DNA of 61,805 nt from a virus. A program made the position numbers and the translations under genes. The stretch is taken from the IMG/VR virus record IMGVR_UViG_3300030099_004395, positions 1 to 61,805 of that record, one strand, 5' to 3'. Under the pieces are notes generated by a model. The model ran no database searches and was not told the DNA's origin. It saw only the letters and a program-made list of their open reading frames with translations. Positions 3,698 through 60,502 of the stretch are shown here, piece by piece. The first letter of the stretch is position 1. The number at the start of each line of letters is the position of its first letter.

Positions 3698-3934
3698 TTA
3701 AGATATTTCACTTAATTCTCTGCAAAACTTTGGTACAGTGTTTGAGTTAGTATAGCTACCATATTCTTGAAAGCATGGCATTGACTCAAACTTTTCTTGA
3801 AATGTAGTATATATTTCGTCGTGATCATAAGTGAATGTTTGATCTTTTTTGTTAGTGAAAGTGATTATTACATTTTCGCCAATTAGAGTTTTTCTGATTA
3901 CAAATCTTTTAGTTGTTAATTTAGAATTTTTCAT
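3698..3934 (-). CDS. Hypothetical protein, 78 aa
   Basis: Unrecognised. MKNSKLTTKRFVIRKTLIGENVIITFTNKK..., predicted beta-rich at the N-terminus. ATG at 3934 lies about 30 nt downstream of promoter-like copy 3. Soluble, basic start, acidic end. Confidence 0.7.
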   Translation of the reverse strand: MKNSKLTTKRFVIRKTLIGENVIITFTNKKDQTFTYDHDEIYTTFQEKFESMPCFQEYGSYTNSNTVPKFCRELSEIS

Positions 3935-4269: not shown

Positions 4270-4304
4270 TTATATAATCTTATTTGAGTCGTATTTACTT
4301 TGCA
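4270..4304 (-). promoter_or_regulatory. Early promoter-like element, copy 4 (variant)
   Basis: Minus strand reads GCAAAGTAAATACGACTC, then AAATAAGATTATATAA. It matches copy 5 closely (shared CAAAGTAA, TACGACTC, GATTATATA) and copies 1-3 more loosely. Positioned upstream of the ATG at 4245. Confidence 0.5.
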
Positions 4305-4305
4305 A

Positions 4306-4404
4306 TTAAAATATTATATTTAGTAATTGATAGATGAAGTTAATAAACATAGTGAATAAGAATACGAGTGAAATGTTGAAAGTTATTAGTTTTAATTTAT
4401 ACAT
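4306..4404 (-). CDS. Tiny membrane peptide, 32 aa
   Basis: Frame MYKLKLITFNISLVFLFTMF then INFIYQLLNIIF: one or two hydrophobic segments, almost no charge after residue 5. ATG at 4404, about 35 nt downstream of promoter-like copy 5. First gene of the leftward arm. Support is its position and hydrophobicity; short AT-rich frames can also be fortuitous. Confidence 0.4.
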   Translation of the reverse strand: MYKLKLITFNISLVFLFTMFINFIYQLLNIIF

Positions 4405-4438
4405 GTTAATTTATTTTTAGTTTTTAATTTAATTACAT

Positions 4439-4474
4439 ATATATAATCATATGCGAGTCGTAATTACTTTGTAT
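4439..4474 (-). promoter_or_regulatory. Early promoter-like element, copy 5 (variant)
   Basis: Minus strand reads ATACAAAGTAATTACGACTC, then GCATATGATTATATATATG. Nearest element to the divergent region, facing the leftward small-gene arm. Read on the plus strand it contains TTACTTTG, one base off the Bacteroidota -7 consensus TAnnTTTG, so a rightward reading is the main alternative. Confidence 0.5.
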
Positions 4475-4811
4475 GATCGCACGTATAAAATATATAACAC
4501 AATATTATTACGATAAAAAATCAATATATATAATAAAATTTTAAAAATAACAAGGGGGCCCGCAATTATATATTTCAATTTCGTTTTATGACGCAATTAT
4601 ATTTTGGGGTGGGCTACGCTATAGCCCCAGGTATCTAATATTATTTTATTTTACTGTGACATTAGCCTATAAAGTATACCTAGTAGTAGGCTTGTGTCAC
4701 ACTTTACTAAATGTAAATTACTCAATTTACCTGTAAATACTATAATTATAACTCATATGTAGAAATGCATGCGAAATAGGATTAAAAAACAAACTACAAA
4801 AATTATCAATT
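4475..4811. other. Divergent intergenic region, candidate origin/control region
   Basis: No supportable gene. It holds a poly-G/C patch (GGGGGCCCGC near 4555), two copies of CGCAATTATAT (4561-4571 and 4592-4602), a GGGCTA/TAGCCC hairpin at 4611-4627, the inverted repeat at 4655-4701, and an AT-rich stretch before the first rightward gene. Divergent transcription, repeats and a repeat shared with the HTH-gene start make it the best candidate for an origin or master control region. This is inference. Confidence 0.4.
4655..4701. repeat. Inverted repeat A, shared with the HTH-gene start
   Basis: Left arm TGTGACATTAGCCTA (4655-4669) and right arm TAGGCTTGTGTCACA (4687-4701) are inverted with 13 of 15 positions matching. 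The same left arm (16 bases, TGTGACATTAGCCTAT) and the right-arm core CTTGTGTCACAC recur at 60338-60383. Likely a protein-binding site or origin element. Confidence 0.65.
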
Positions 4812-8684: not shown

Positions 8685-9292
8685 GTTTATTAACCGAGCG
8701 TAAAAAGAATAGTTTTAAACTAGCAGGTGGACCAGCATTTTTTGGTACAAATGCGATGACTAAGCTATTAGAAGAAGCTAAAAATAAAGTTAAAGAAGCC
8801 GCATTAAATTCGAGACCATCTGACGAAGTTGCTCCTAAAGTTGGTAGTGCTCATAGAAATAGCTCTAGAAACAATTGGCTTGAAAGATCTAAAGCACAAG
8901 GTGAAGAAATGGCTGAAGAAAAAGCAGCTGAAGAAAAAGCGAAAGCAGAAGAAGAAGCAGCTAAGAAAGCAGAAGTTGAAAGAGAAGCATTAAGTCAAGG
9001 TGAAAACATAGCAGATTCAGAAGGTAGAAAAGGTAGAAAAGCAGCTAAGAAGGATGCTAAAGCCGAAGCTAAAGCAGAGAAAGCAGCACTAAAACAACAG
9101 TGTGCTGGATTAAGAGGTAAAGCTAAAAGACAATGTAATTCTTCTGCTAGAAAAAATTTTAGAAAAGATAAGAAAGCTATACGTAAAGCAAATAGAGCTA
9201 AAAAGAAAGAAAACTTTGGTAAAACTAAAGTAGGTAAAACATTGAAAAAATGGACCTGCACTAAAAGAAGAAGAAGAAAAGGTAAATGTTAA
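8681..9292 (+). CDS. Basic Ala/Lys/Glu-rich protein, 203 aa
   Basis: Overlaps the groES stop (TTATGAG). Three parts: an N-terminus MSLLTERKKNSFKLAGGPAFFG; an Ala/Glu/Lys helix (about 70-135) likely to be coiled coil; and a very basic end with Cys pairs (QQCAGLRGKAKRQC and CTKRRRRKGKC). Composition suggests nucleic-acid binding. Function unknown; part of the H1-like group. Confidence 0.65.
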   Translation: MSLLTERKKNSFKLAGGPAFFGTNAMTKLLEEAKNKVKEAALNSRPSDEVAPKVGSAHRNSSRNNWLERSKAQGEEMAEEKAAEEKAKAEEEAAKKAEVEREALSQGENIADSEGRKGRKAAKKDAKAEAKAEKAALKQQCAGLRGKAKRQCNSSARKNFRKDKKAIRKANRAKKKENFGKTKVGKTLKKWTCTKRRRRKGKC

Positions 9293-9735
9293 TGAGATTA
9301 AATTCAAAAGATTTAAAAGAATTAAACTTACTTAAGCATTATAGAATAATACGTAAATGGGCTTGTAAAAGCTATGATCTAAACGACGCAGACTTAGAGC
9401 TGTTAATATACTTAGAAGCTTTAAACCTATTTACGAAAGATGATTTTAAAAAAGGTACGTATTCATATAGTTGGGATAATAGGCGCTGGAACAGACTATT
9501 GAAACAAGGGTGGATTACGGTGTGGAGGAAGAGAAACCGCACAACTCAAAAATATCATATATATAAAGTATCCGTAAAGTGTAAACAACTTATATCGCGT
9601 ATGTACCGTATAATGCTAGGTGAAGAAGACATGCCTACATTAAAGATTGAAGCGAAAAGCAATTACACTAATAAAGTTATATCTAAATCTATAACTTTTG
9701 TAAACAAAGATAAAACAAGATCAAATGGCTTATAA
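9292..9735 (+). CDS. Winged-helix-like DNA-binding protein, 147 aa
   Basis: Start taken at ATG 9292 (MRLNSKDLKEL), in a TAATG overlap with the previous stop; an ATG two codons earlier is possible. The pattern of short helices (DLELLIYLEALNLFTKDDF) followed by RRWNRLLKQGWITVWRKRNR and a KYHIYKVS strand fits a MarR-like winged helix. Possibly a regulator or a DNA-binding accessory of the basic proteins around it. Assignment is by pattern only. Confidence 0.5.
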   Translation: MRLNSKDLKELNLLKHYRIIRKWACKSYDLNDADLELLIYLEALNLFTKDDFKKGTYSYSWDNRRWNRLLKQGWITVWRKRNRTTQKYHIYKVSVKCKQLISRMYRIMLGEEDMPTLKIEAKSNYTNKVISKSITFVNKDKTRSNGL

Positions 9736-11533
9736 ACAAGATAGAAACCCTGGTAAGATAGAGTATGGACCTGCTGGTTATAGAGATCCTAGAAAAATTT
9801 CTAAAAACTATAACGCGTTAGAGTTTAGTATGCCTGACTTAGACAACATAATAGATAATAAAGCTGATGGTGAACAAACTACAGAAGATCTAAGTAATAA
9901 AACAGGAACTGAAAAGGAAGGTGTAGTAACTAAAGGTGAAACTGTAAAACCTGCTAATGCTGACTTAATGAAGAAAGTTGAAAACAGCGAGAAGGTTCAA
10001 TCTTTCATAGATGAAGGAAAAAGTTTAAAAGGTGAAAGGAAAAGAGGTAGACAACTTAAAAGAGGTATTAATACTGCTATTAGACAATTTGAAAGAGACA
10101 GTAGAAAAAGAGGTTTAAGCCCAGAAAGAGAAGAAAAGCTTCAAGCAGCTAAAGATGAAAGAGATAGATTAAGAGGATTAGAAACTGCTAAGAAGGAGGA
10201 AGATAAGATGATCAAAAAAGAAAACAAAGAAACAGAAAAAGAAATTAAGAAAGCTAACAAAAATAAAATTAAAAAAGCACAAGCTGAGTTTGATAAAATG
10301 CAAGCAGAAAAATACGGAATCGTTGATGGTGAATTTAAAGAAACTAAAGTCGATGATTATGAAGAACTTAAACATGATCTATATGAACAAGATCAAGACA
10401 GAAGGTGGGGAGTAGGAACAAAAATGTATAAAGATATGAGACCTAAAAACTTAATGAACAAAGGTAATAGAATGCCTGAAATAGATAGCGAAGAAACTAG
10501 ACCTGCTATGTACAATCAAGGTCGACCTATGAACTCTGGTATATTAGAGAATAATCCTAATATAATGCAACCAGATAATAAAGTGCCATTTTCACAGCAT
10601 CAGACTAATGAGAAGTTTAGCAATATAGCTAGTGCTTCACCTGATCCGTTTCAAGCTTCTAATACACCAAACAAGCCTATGGGTGGATTAGATCAAACAT
10701 TTAGCCAAGGTCAAATGGCGATGTACGGTATGGGTCCTGAGTTTAATCCTAAATTAAAAGCTGCATCAGAAGCGGGTGATTTAGATGACAATCCAAATTT
10801 TAAAGCAAAAGTAGACGCTGCACCAGCTAGTCACTACCATATTAGTAAAGGTAAATATGCTAATGATACTAGAGTAAATAAAGCGAACTATGATGCAACT
10901 GAAAGAGATGACGCTGCTCATATTGATTATTTAAAGAAAGATATCGATTACGATGCTAAGCATAACAAAAGCGATATAGACATGACAGCTGATGAGAAGC
11001 ATATATCTAAATTAGCTGGAGACATGAAGTATGATAAAGAACATCATTCACCTGCTTATGGTAAACACGGTGCTGCTTGGAAAAGAAAGACAAATGAAGG
11101 CACTAATAAAAGAGGTCAAAAGGTCACTATTGAACAAACTAAAAGAGAGAAAGCTGAAAAACCAACTGACTACTCAGATAACTTTACTATGAACTTTGGT
11201 GACAAAGAAGGTAAGGGTAAGCCAGCAAAAGATAATACAGTTACTTTTACTAGAGAAACTAAGAGAGGCACTAAAGTTAAGAGCGCTGAGGGCGGTACTC
11301 GTAAGTCAAAGAGATTATTGAGTAAGTTCAAAAGGCAAACAGCTAGAGGAACAAGAGAAAAAGCTCAATATGATCAACCAGGTAGCTTTAAAGGTTTAGT
11401 TAGTAAGCTACAGAAAAAAGGTAAATCAAAATCAGTTGCTACTAAAATTGCTGGTAAAATAGCTAATATAAAAAGAAAAGGTGGAGGTAAAGGACCTACA
11501 GCAAAACAGAAAGCAAGAATGCGTAAGAACTAA
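9725..11533 (+). CDS. Large charged low-complexity protein with PxMY repeats, 602 aa
   Basis: Highly charged. Roughly 90-190 is Lys/Glu/Arg helix, probable coiled coil (ERDSRKRGLSPEREEKLQAA). The middle has short units RPAMYNQGRPMNSG and QMAMYGMGPEF, and a His/Asp/Lys-rich part (about 370-450). The C-terminus is H1-like (KLQKKGKSKSVATKIAGKIA, KGGGKGPTAKQKARMRKN). YDQPGSF near the end matches YDQPGMY of the protein at 4812. Probably virion-associated or DNA-condensing; function inferred only from composition. Confidence 0.65.
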   Translation: MAYKQDRNPGKIEYGPAGYRDPRKISKNYNALEFSMPDLDNIIDNKADGEQTTEDLSNKTGTEKEGVVTKGETVKPANADLMKKVENSEKVQSFIDEGKSLKGERKRGRQLKRGINTAIRQFERDSRKRGLSPEREEKLQAAKDERDRLRGLETAKKEEDKMIKKENKETEKEIKKANKNKIKKAQAEFDKMQAEKYGIVDGEFKETKVDDYEELKHDLYEQDQDRRWGVGTKMYKDMRPKNLMNKGNRMPEIDSEETRPAMYNQGRPMNSGILENNPNIMQPDNKVPFSQHQTNEKFSNIASASPDPFQASNTPNKPMGGLDQTFSQGQMAMYGMGPEFNPKLKAASEAGDLDDNPNFKAKVDAAPASHYHISKGKYANDTRVNKANYDATERDDAAHIDYLKKDIDYDAKHNKSDIDMTADEKHISKLAGDMKYDKEHHSPAYGKHGAAWKRKTNEGTNKRGQKVTIEQTKREKAEKPTDYSDNFTMNFGDKEGKGKPAKDNTVTFTRETKRGTKVKSAEGGTRKSKRLLSKFKRQTARGTREKAQYDQPGSFKGLVSKLQKKGKSKSVATKIAGKIANIKRKGGGKGPTAKQKARMRKN

Positions 11534-58945: not shown

Positions 58946-58988
58946 ACTATTATAATTACATATTTATTATACAATTTACATAGGTAAC

Positions 58989-59738
58989 TCACAGATAATC
59001 AAGTACTTGCGAGTGATCTACGTTTGCTATTAATTTTTCTACAGCTTGCTTTTTTAACTCTGAAATACGCACATAAGCTGAAACACCTTTAATTTCTAAA
59101 GCTGTTGCTATTTCATTAGCAGACCATTTAGGACCGTCAAGACCATAGCTTTTGCTTAATACAAACATTTCGTTCCATTCAAGGTGTTTGTTAAGTAAAC
59201 TTAATATATAAGCATTAAGTAACGTTTCATTGTAAGGATCTGATTTATCAGGTATTTGATAAACCATATCTTCATCATCTTGCTTAGCATCATATGATAA
59301 AAATATAGAATTAAAAAACATTCTAACCATTTTTTCATCTTTAGTACTACGCATTTCATTTAACCTATGCTCAGGTATTCGCATTGTGCCTCTATTTATA
59401 TCAATAGCTCTACGTATTCCACCTCTTATTCTTTTAGCTAAAAATGACTTTAAAGTTTTTTCTACGTCTTCAGATACAAATAATTTTTCTCTATCTATTT
59501 TATCTACAGCTTTACACAATTGTAAACTACCTTCTTGTATTATATCCATAATAGACATAACACCTGAAGCTTCTTGACTAGTAGCAAACTTTCTACCTAT
59601 ATTTTCTACTAATGGTAAAAATATAACTTTAAGTTCTTCAGGTTTGTAATCGATAAAGTTTTTAACTGGTATTTTAGCAATAGATAACTTTACATCTTCT
59701 TTATATCTAATATAGTTTTTTACATTATATTTTTTCAT
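58989..59738 (-). CDS. Sigma-70-family sigma factor, 249 aa
   Basis: Region 2-like: MDIIQEGSLQLCKAVDKIDR, then FLAKRIRGGIRRAIDINRGT (helix pattern like the -10 reading helices). Region 4-like: WSANEIATALEIKGVSAYVRISEL with helix-turn-helix. Short for a sigma factor, without region 1.1. It would redirect host RNA polymerase to phage promoters, plausibly the AAGTGAT or ACAAA/GATAATA families. Overlaps the HTH gene start side by 14 nt. Confidence 0.8.
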   Translation of the reverse strand: MKKYNVKNYIRYKEDVKLSIAKIPVKNFIDYKPEELKVIFLPLVENIGRKFATSQEASGVMSIMDIIQEGSLQLCKAVDKIDREKLFVSEDVEKTLKSFLAKRIRGGIRRAIDINRGTMRIPEHRLNEMRSTKDEKMVRMFFNSIFLSYDAKQDDEDMVYQIPDKSDPYNETLLNAYILSLLNKHLEWNEMFVLSKSYGLDGPKWSANEIATALEIKGVSAYVRISELKKQAVEKLIANVDHSQVLDYL

Positions 59739-60345
59739 TTTCTATATTTAAAAGATCCTTTTCTTTTTTTAGTTCTATGCTCATATTTCTATGTATTGTT
59801 CTACTTGAACACTTTAACAATTTAGCTAATTTGCTTATTGTTATTTTCTCATTCATGTCGTTTATATCTAACATACATTGATAAATGTTTTTTTCGTCAA
59901 TACTTTTTCTGCCTATTAACTTACCTACAATACTAAGTTTTTTTGATTTATCTAAACCGCTATTATCTTTAAATACTATTTTACGTAATTTATTTTTAGG
60001 TGGACGATCTAAATCTGATAAAAACACATCTGATACTAAAAAATCAAACTGCTTTTCTGACACATCAAACGTTATAAAGCCGTTTGGTTTATAGCAAATG
60101 TGTATAGCAAGTTGCTTAAACTTTTCAAAATCCATATTAGGATTTAACCACCATAAAGTAATTAAATGCCAAGTTAAAGATCTCATTGTATTTATCTTAG
60201 CATCGCTATTAAATAGACTATAATACCCATGAGTACCGTCAGCATAGTACCATCCCCACTCAAACTCTTGAGTTGGTTGATCTTCTGAATACTTTCGGTA
60301 TATGATGCGGTTATCATTTAAGTATTTCATAGCGCGTTGTGACAT
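59725..60345 (-). CDS. HTH DNA-binding protein (possible initiator or regulator), 206 aa
   Basis: Start preferred at ATG 60345 (MSQRAMKYLNDNR), with an upstream ATG at 60411 possible but running through the 48-aa gene. C-terminal helix-turn-helix: KITISKLAKLLKCSSRTIHR. The ATG is inside inverted repeat B (60338-60382), a near-copy of the repeat at 4655-4701, suggesting this protein binds its own start and the divergent region. Could be a repressor, activator or replication initiator. Confidence 0.6.
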   Translation of the reverse strand: MSQRAMKYLNDNRIIYRKYSEDQPTQEFEWGWYYADGTHGYYSLFNSDAKINTMRSLTWHLITLWWLNPNMDFEKFKQLAIHICYKPNGFITFDVSEKQFDFLVSDVFLSDLDRPPKNKLRKIVFKDNSGLDKSKKLSIVGKLIGRKSIDEKNIYQCMLDINDMNEKITISKLAKLLKCSSRTIHRNMSIELKKEKDLLNIENEKI

Positions 60346-60382
60346 TAGCCTATTACTATTTATCTTTAGACCTTGTGTCACA
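60338..60382. repeat. Inverted repeat B, overlapping the HTH-gene start
   Basis: Left arm TGTGACATTAGCCTA (60338-60352) identical to that at 4655-4669; right arm ends CTTGTGTCACAC as at 4691-4702. Here the right arm is less regular (TAGACC instead of TAGGC). It contains the ATG of the HTH gene and the stop of the 48-aa gene. Confidence 0.65.
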
Positions 60383-60502
60383 CAGAGTTGTAATGTACAA
60401 CTCATGTTCATTAGCTACATTATTTTGTTGTATACACTCTTCTAACCATAAATTAGAATAATACATTACAAAATCTGAATAATCTCTTTTTGATTGTCCC
60501 AT
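60356..60502 (-). CDS. Hypothetical protein, 48 aa
   Basis: Frame MGQSKRDYSDFVMYYSNLWL..., ATG at 60502 one base below the stop of the gene at 60504; the stop (TAG) lies in the loop of inverted repeat B. Acidic, aromatic. Unknown. It precedes the HTH gene and probably shares its transcript. Confidence 0.6.
   Translation of the reverse strand: MGQSKRDYSDFVMYYSNLWLEECIQQNNVANEHELYITTLCDTRSKDK

Follow-up and report, generated by a model that had tools for sequence, protein, structure and literature searches.

A paired inverted-repeat element at a helix-turn-helix gene and at the early/late region of a phage group: candidate operators of a phage gene switch

The window analysed here, the whole stretch of 61,805 bp, is a virus record. 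Its leftward genes start at ~4 kb, with a second block of them at the far end (61.6 to 49.8 kb), and its rightward genes extend from 4.8 to 49.7 kb. Two copies of a quasi-palindromic element lie in it, site A on the start codon of a helix-turn-helix (HTH) gene and site B in the divergent region between the early and late genes (Table 1). The two would be ~6.1 kb apart if the record is circular, which is an assumption. The portal protein of the window shows 40–48% identity to those among the matches listed, which come from Flavobacterium phages and one environmental podovirus, and further portal matches belong to Cellulophaga, Tenacibaculum and Maribacter phages. Because of these matches a Bacteroidota host is likely for the window phage, and the hundreds of relatives that bear the site are probably Bacteroidota-infecting phages. 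The first early gene is of a type (KRFVIRKSLIG) that is widespread among the relatives and duplicated in some, and family-library searches gave no family match for it. Megablast, blastn and tblastn searches against sequenced phages returned no usable match for the site or for the HTH protein, and no close homologue of the latter was found by tblastn in 50,697 phage records.

Table 1 Features of the window that bear on the paired element
Feature	Position	Strand	Remarks
First early gene, KRFVIRKSLIG type	3698–3934		
Early-promoter-like motif, six copies	5' ends 80, 1095, 2914, 3996, 4302, 4471	-	
Two leftward early-promoter-like motifs	4302–4471 (5' ends 4471 and 4302)	-	nearest 184 bp (~190) from site B
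Site B, 47-bp quasi-palindrome in the early/late divergent region	4655–4701	+	sequence; model R1 match 1.5e-10 (copy belonged to R1 training set)
Promoter-like motif TGTAAAT-N13-TGTAAATACTATA	4709–4744	+	PWM 27.3, training member; 7 bp after site B, faces late genes
Second copy of late-type promoter-like motif	58948–58983	-	PWM 19.7, not in training; before erf, no element beside it
Sigma-like gene, directly behind HTH gene	58989–59738	-	PHROG_351 sigma factor 6.7e-14
HTH protein gene, 206 aa, ATG within site A	59725–60345	-	candidate binder of both sites
Site A, 45-bp quasi-palindrome on the HTH start codon	60338–60382	-	sequence; model R1 match 3.7e-11 (copy belonged to R1 training set)
Small ORF, 48 aa, before HTH gene	60356–60502	-	last codons inside site A (left arm)

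The arms of the element are present at both places as the sequence-only reading had described them: TGTGACATTAGCCTAT occurs exactly at 4655–4670 and 60338–60353, and the right arm, CTTGTGTCACAC, at 4691–4702 and 60372–60383. Its further observations also hold, in that the ATG of the HTH gene (60345, minus strand) falls inside the second copy and the first copy, read leftward, encodes M-S-Q-stop. The 16-base repeat alone is weak evidence, as the average for simulated windows is 0.8 repeated 16-mers containing 6 or more G/C. The heptamer TGTGACA, however, occurs just twice in the window, each time within TGTGACA-N(29–36)-TGTCACA, and 30 simulated windows contained no such arrangement. The in-register arm pair is not chance. 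The two copies differ in length (47 versus 45 bp) because the centre varies.

Across the group the element consists of two inverted 20-bp half-sites, each with a near-invariant outer 7-mer and a looser inner part, around a variable centre, with the consensus TGTGACA NN AGCCTRTTACT N5-8 AGTAAYAGGCT NN TGTCACA and a length of 45–48 bp. All 115 copies from the first site-bearing loci are of this length, which the step that collected them itself fixed; the 89 stretches returned by an open-gap (10–40 bases) pattern search of viral contigs have the same lengths. A covariance model matched each of 50 related records, the majority of them picked by presence of the site. When two matches on opposite strands are counted as one site, 28 of these records carry two sites, ten carry three and nine a single one, while three gave odd counts. 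Paired copies in related genomes, a search for which had been proposed as a check, are thus the rule (at least two sites in 41 of the 50), and a gene start kept with no second copy is generally not seen among these records: in the nine with a single site the HTH gene is missing, or less than 8 kb of sequence lies upstream of it. Two relatives of the same portal lineage that have no close HTH homologue contained no element at E ≤ 10. Neither the element nor the HTH protein was found described in the family libraries or in the literature covered, which included a minority of subscription papers; the words of the site matched only three papers, seemingly unrelated by title, and a search on flavophage late promoters returned nothing.

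The HTH protein matched no Pfam, PHROG or NCBIfam family above cut-off. Its C-terminal 24 residues match HTH_11 (E = 8.5e-4; 19.4–19.6 bits for the window member versus a cut-off of 25), a domain that was matched in 26 of 26 aligned members, and the N-terminal two thirds gave no curated-family match. An AlphaFold2 model (mean pLDDT 88.6, pTM 0.66) contains three helices at residues 54–108 and a C-terminal helical HTH part at 133–205, and two helical DNA-binding-like parts of this kind would fit the two-part half-site. Matches to the fold among solved structures in the PDB were to generic HTH proteins only. The sole other hit was an unnamed viral model (A0A516MIB4, E = 1.5e-10), and assignment to a named family by fold search was rejected. 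The elemo phage protein gp54 was likewise discarded as a homologue, its profile match (E = 8e-4, against reading frames from part of one genome) being too weak, and the part of that genome searched held no site.

Comparison with relatives places the start of the HTH gene at the ATG at 60345 and not at the start of the longer ORF from 60411. Nearly every relative uses the right-arm ATG (ATGTCACA, M-S-H/Q) as its HTH start codon; four relatives have an HTH ORF that begins ~20 nt past the element, which is still kept. We confirmed 517 HTH relatives and fetched the best 80 of the 517 loci by protein alignment alone, since a choice based on the site would bias the sample. The element lies at the HTH start in 78 of these 80 protein-chosen loci, a few of them as weak matches. 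Of the two exceptions, one locus begins inside the HTH gene; in the other, L341, an HNH-endonuclease-like insert of ~1.1 kb (positions 8854–10001) separates the HTH gene from an intact site A. Conversely, the HTH protein is encoded in 48 of the 50 records that bear the site; the remaining two are probably incomplete. Where a record has two HTH genes, as two records do, there is a site at each. Loci L319 and L334 are one contig (IMGVR 3300047157_000162; 129,537 bp, ~2x the usual length) that carries two different HTH genes and is perhaps a chimeric assembly.

Site A also covers the end of the small ORF that precedes the HTH gene, and relatives have similar small ORFs at this position. In many of them a 'KPEGTV' motif, which resembled the active site of ribonucleotide reductase, stands next to the element; a split reductase gene was rejected as its source, because the motif is the tail of the small ORF.

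In the same best 80 of 517 loci we located 70 further sites (among them the one displaced site A of L341), all of them outside ORFs of 60 aa or longer; their median distance upstream of the HTH gene is 7.3 kb. Most of these distal sites are either in the divergent early/late region, here called site B, or behind the first early gene, called site C. Site B, which has counterparts in ~20 relatives, is typically found 36–120 bp before the first late gene. Coding constraint alone was rejected as an explanation of the element, as the distal copies are noncoding and four relatives keep it although their ORF starts after it. The idea that the first copy is a copied start region that lost its gene likewise finds no support: beyond the operator edges the copies are no longer alike, conserved flanks of their own border the distal sites, and the four displaced HTH starts also speak against it.

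In the window and in most relatives the distal site lies between divergent early and late promoter motifs, both of which are computed and not mapped. On the late side, relatives share the motif TGTAAAT-N13-TGTAATnATA facing the late genes. A PWM built from 13 such motifs beside site B gave two strong matches in the window, compared with 0–1 above 15 bits in shuffled windows, and its matches over 1.07 Mb of related loci fall mainly beside site B or before erf. In most relatives the motif lies −1 to +7 bp past the edge of site B, and the distance is loose, mostly −1 to +17 bp, with values of 31, 34, ~80, 137 and ~180 bp in some. On the early side, the six minus-strand copies of CAAAnTAAnnACGA-N~10-GATnAT are mostly placed before early genes, and in relatives the nearest early motif is often found 177–203 bp away on the other side of site B. 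In two relatives (G021 and G027) the only distal site found is the one behind the first early gene. The gene that follows the HTH gene also matches sigma70-ECF TIGR02937 (3.8e-8, under cut-off), and the motif before erf and the late operons is possibly read by this phage sigma-like factor.

If a single protein binds both classes of site, start-codon and distal sites would be expected to vary together. Half-sites of the two classes, compared in 26 representatives under 80% HTH identity, are indeed more alike within than between genomes (12.26 versus 11.77 of 18 positions, permutation p = 2e-4), and the HTH tree has four places at which a TGCGAC variant is seen in both classes at once (Fisher p = 0.010). 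This concerted variation argues for one binder and is good but not conclusive evidence, because the HTH tree is weakly supported and the related genomes are not independent, so that shared ancestry inflates concerted change. The proposal of the sequence-only reading, that the HTH protein binds both sites as a candidate auto-regulator and as a controller or initiator at the divergent region, is supported indirectly by this variation, by the co-occurrence of site and HTH gene and by the placing of the distal site in early/late control DNA.

Our preferred reading, which we regard as reasonably probable, is that the sites are operators of the phage's own autoregulated HTH protein, acting at the early/late control region. 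As one copy lies at the HTH start and another between early and late genes, the protein very likely controls both itself and the phage gene programme. We infer that a dimer or higher oligomer would bind the two inverted 20-bp half-sites, TGTGACA-NN-AGCCTRTTACT, possibly with one sub-site for each helical domain. At site A it would limit transcription of its own gene and of the downstream sigma-like gene in a negative feedback; at site B, which borders the late promoter motif on its upstream side, and at site C if present, it would act on the early/late control region. Its most likely role would be that of an early-versus-late transcription switch worked jointly with the phage sigma-like factor. 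As no site stands beside the promoter motif that precedes erf, it would be the HTH protein that sets late genes apart from middle genes. The loose spacing between site B and the late motif leans against a rigid activator, a role that also does not suit the placement of the distal site in G021 and G027.

A rather unlikely alternative is that the HTH protein is a replication initiator, with site B as the origin, the AT-rich tract as an unwinding element and site A as an autoregulatory operator, after the manner of iteron-plasmid initiators. At ~4590–4654 of the window a G-rich hairpin-like stretch is followed by an A+T tract that abuts the left of site B, an arrangement conserved in most relatives and compatible with an origin, and the HTH gene is placed shortly before the erf, exonuclease and primase-helicase genes. 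Site C, however, has neither AT tract nor hairpin, the gene next to the HTH gene is sigma-like and the sites adjoin promoter motifs. The GC skew, proposed earlier as a check for an origin, does turn at the divergent region, but it also follows gene direction and hence does not separate an origin from a switch.

It is less probable still that the HTH gene is merely a target, and that the element is bound by another phage protein kept along with it, such as the first early gene product or the sigma-like factor, or by a host factor. The case for the HTH protein is one of co-occurrence, and these genomes often have the KRFVIRKSLIG-type first early gene and the sigma-like gene as well; nevertheless, some genomes with a different first early gene (MSNQELITNAIAKMSN type) still keep the site. 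As for the host, a scan of genomes from 84,980 bacterial and archaeal species gave 18 matches to the element, and the convincing ones, those with proper inner arms, occur only on phage-like contigs, most of which have the HTH gene (it lies beside five sites). A host regulon is therefore unlikely, and a host-derived site was rejected on the same ground. The phage-like site-bearing contigs (L170, L173, L175, L176/L179, L178 and L182; five with an HTH match) come from MAGs labelled Aliivibrio, Halieaceae, Saprospiraceae, Sphingobacteriales and Salibacteraceae, in which they are probably misbinned.

We consider very unlikely a translational control in which a hairpin of the mRNA conceals the HTH start codon. 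Single strands of both copies do form more stable folds than shuffled versions (z ~ −3.7 to −4.4) and place the AUG in the stem, but three of the inner pairs are broken in 7 to 19 of 43 copies, compensatory change in the inner arms does not exceed that in shuffles, and the outer stem is invariant and hence uninformative. In addition, the start codon is outside the element in four relatives, there was no Rfam match, and site B, being between the computed late and early promoters, is probably outside both transcripts. The lack of inner-arm covariation and the probable position of site B outside the transcripts make a DNA operator likelier than an RNA hairpin. Least plausible is that the two copies serve recombination or resolution, as cores for a tyrosine recombinase (spacer 5–8 bp) or as telomere sites: inverted arms around a short, variable centre do resemble the layout of recombinase core sites, but the centres of the two window copies differ in sequence and length, and, as differing central spacers prevent strand exchange by tyrosine recombinases, exchange would be prevented here, one site covers a start codon, and no integrase-type gene was found among the part of the window's proteins that was scanned.

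An operator-based switch under the HTH protein leads to a broader proposal, which we put forward tentatively and with some doubt. The HTH protein may represent a previously undescribed two-domain phage regulator family (viral contigs encode at least 517 relatives) that through one long bipartite operator of variable centre, on its own start codon and on early/late promoters, runs the whole early-to-late programme of a large podovirus group, possibly coupled to replication at the same locus. One protein and one 45–48-bp site, usually in two or three copies per genome, together with early and middle/late promoter motifs, give a testable hold on gene timing in a large, poorly studied phage group. 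The site can also be used to find members of the group, to orient contigs and to predict, with no need of experiments, the early/late junction of metagenomic phages.

Several known systems share single features with the one described here. CRP-type sites have the form TGTGA-N6-TCACA, and the words TGTGA and TCACA are common to both, but here they are ~35–38 bases apart instead of 6. The likeness to HTH_11 or resolvase-type HTH domains of Pfam consists of the weak C-terminal match, which for the window member is below cut-off. Iteron plasmid initiators of the RepE/RepA type bind an inverted repeat at their own gene and a second region elsewhere. The window resembles them in having a candidate regulator site at the regulator's own gene and at a second region; it differs in that both sites are the same inverted repeat and the neighbouring gene is sigma-like, and no direct iterons were noticed.

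The closest parallel is offered by protein p4 of the Bacillus phage phi29, which binds imperfect inverted repeats in the region from the early A2c/A2b promoters to the late A3 promoter, where it represses early and activates late transcription (PMC3100819). Its site is CTTTTT-15 bp-AAAATG, and its fold is described as a new DNA-binding type. The two systems are alike in having inverted-repeat sites between early and late promoters, which here are putative ones, given by computed motifs in the window and most relatives. They differ in the sequence and size of the site, and the window has in addition a site on the regulator's own start codon with a sigma-like gene behind it. The HTH system of the window is best read as working like the p4 switch of phi29, a likeness that lies in the placing of the sites.
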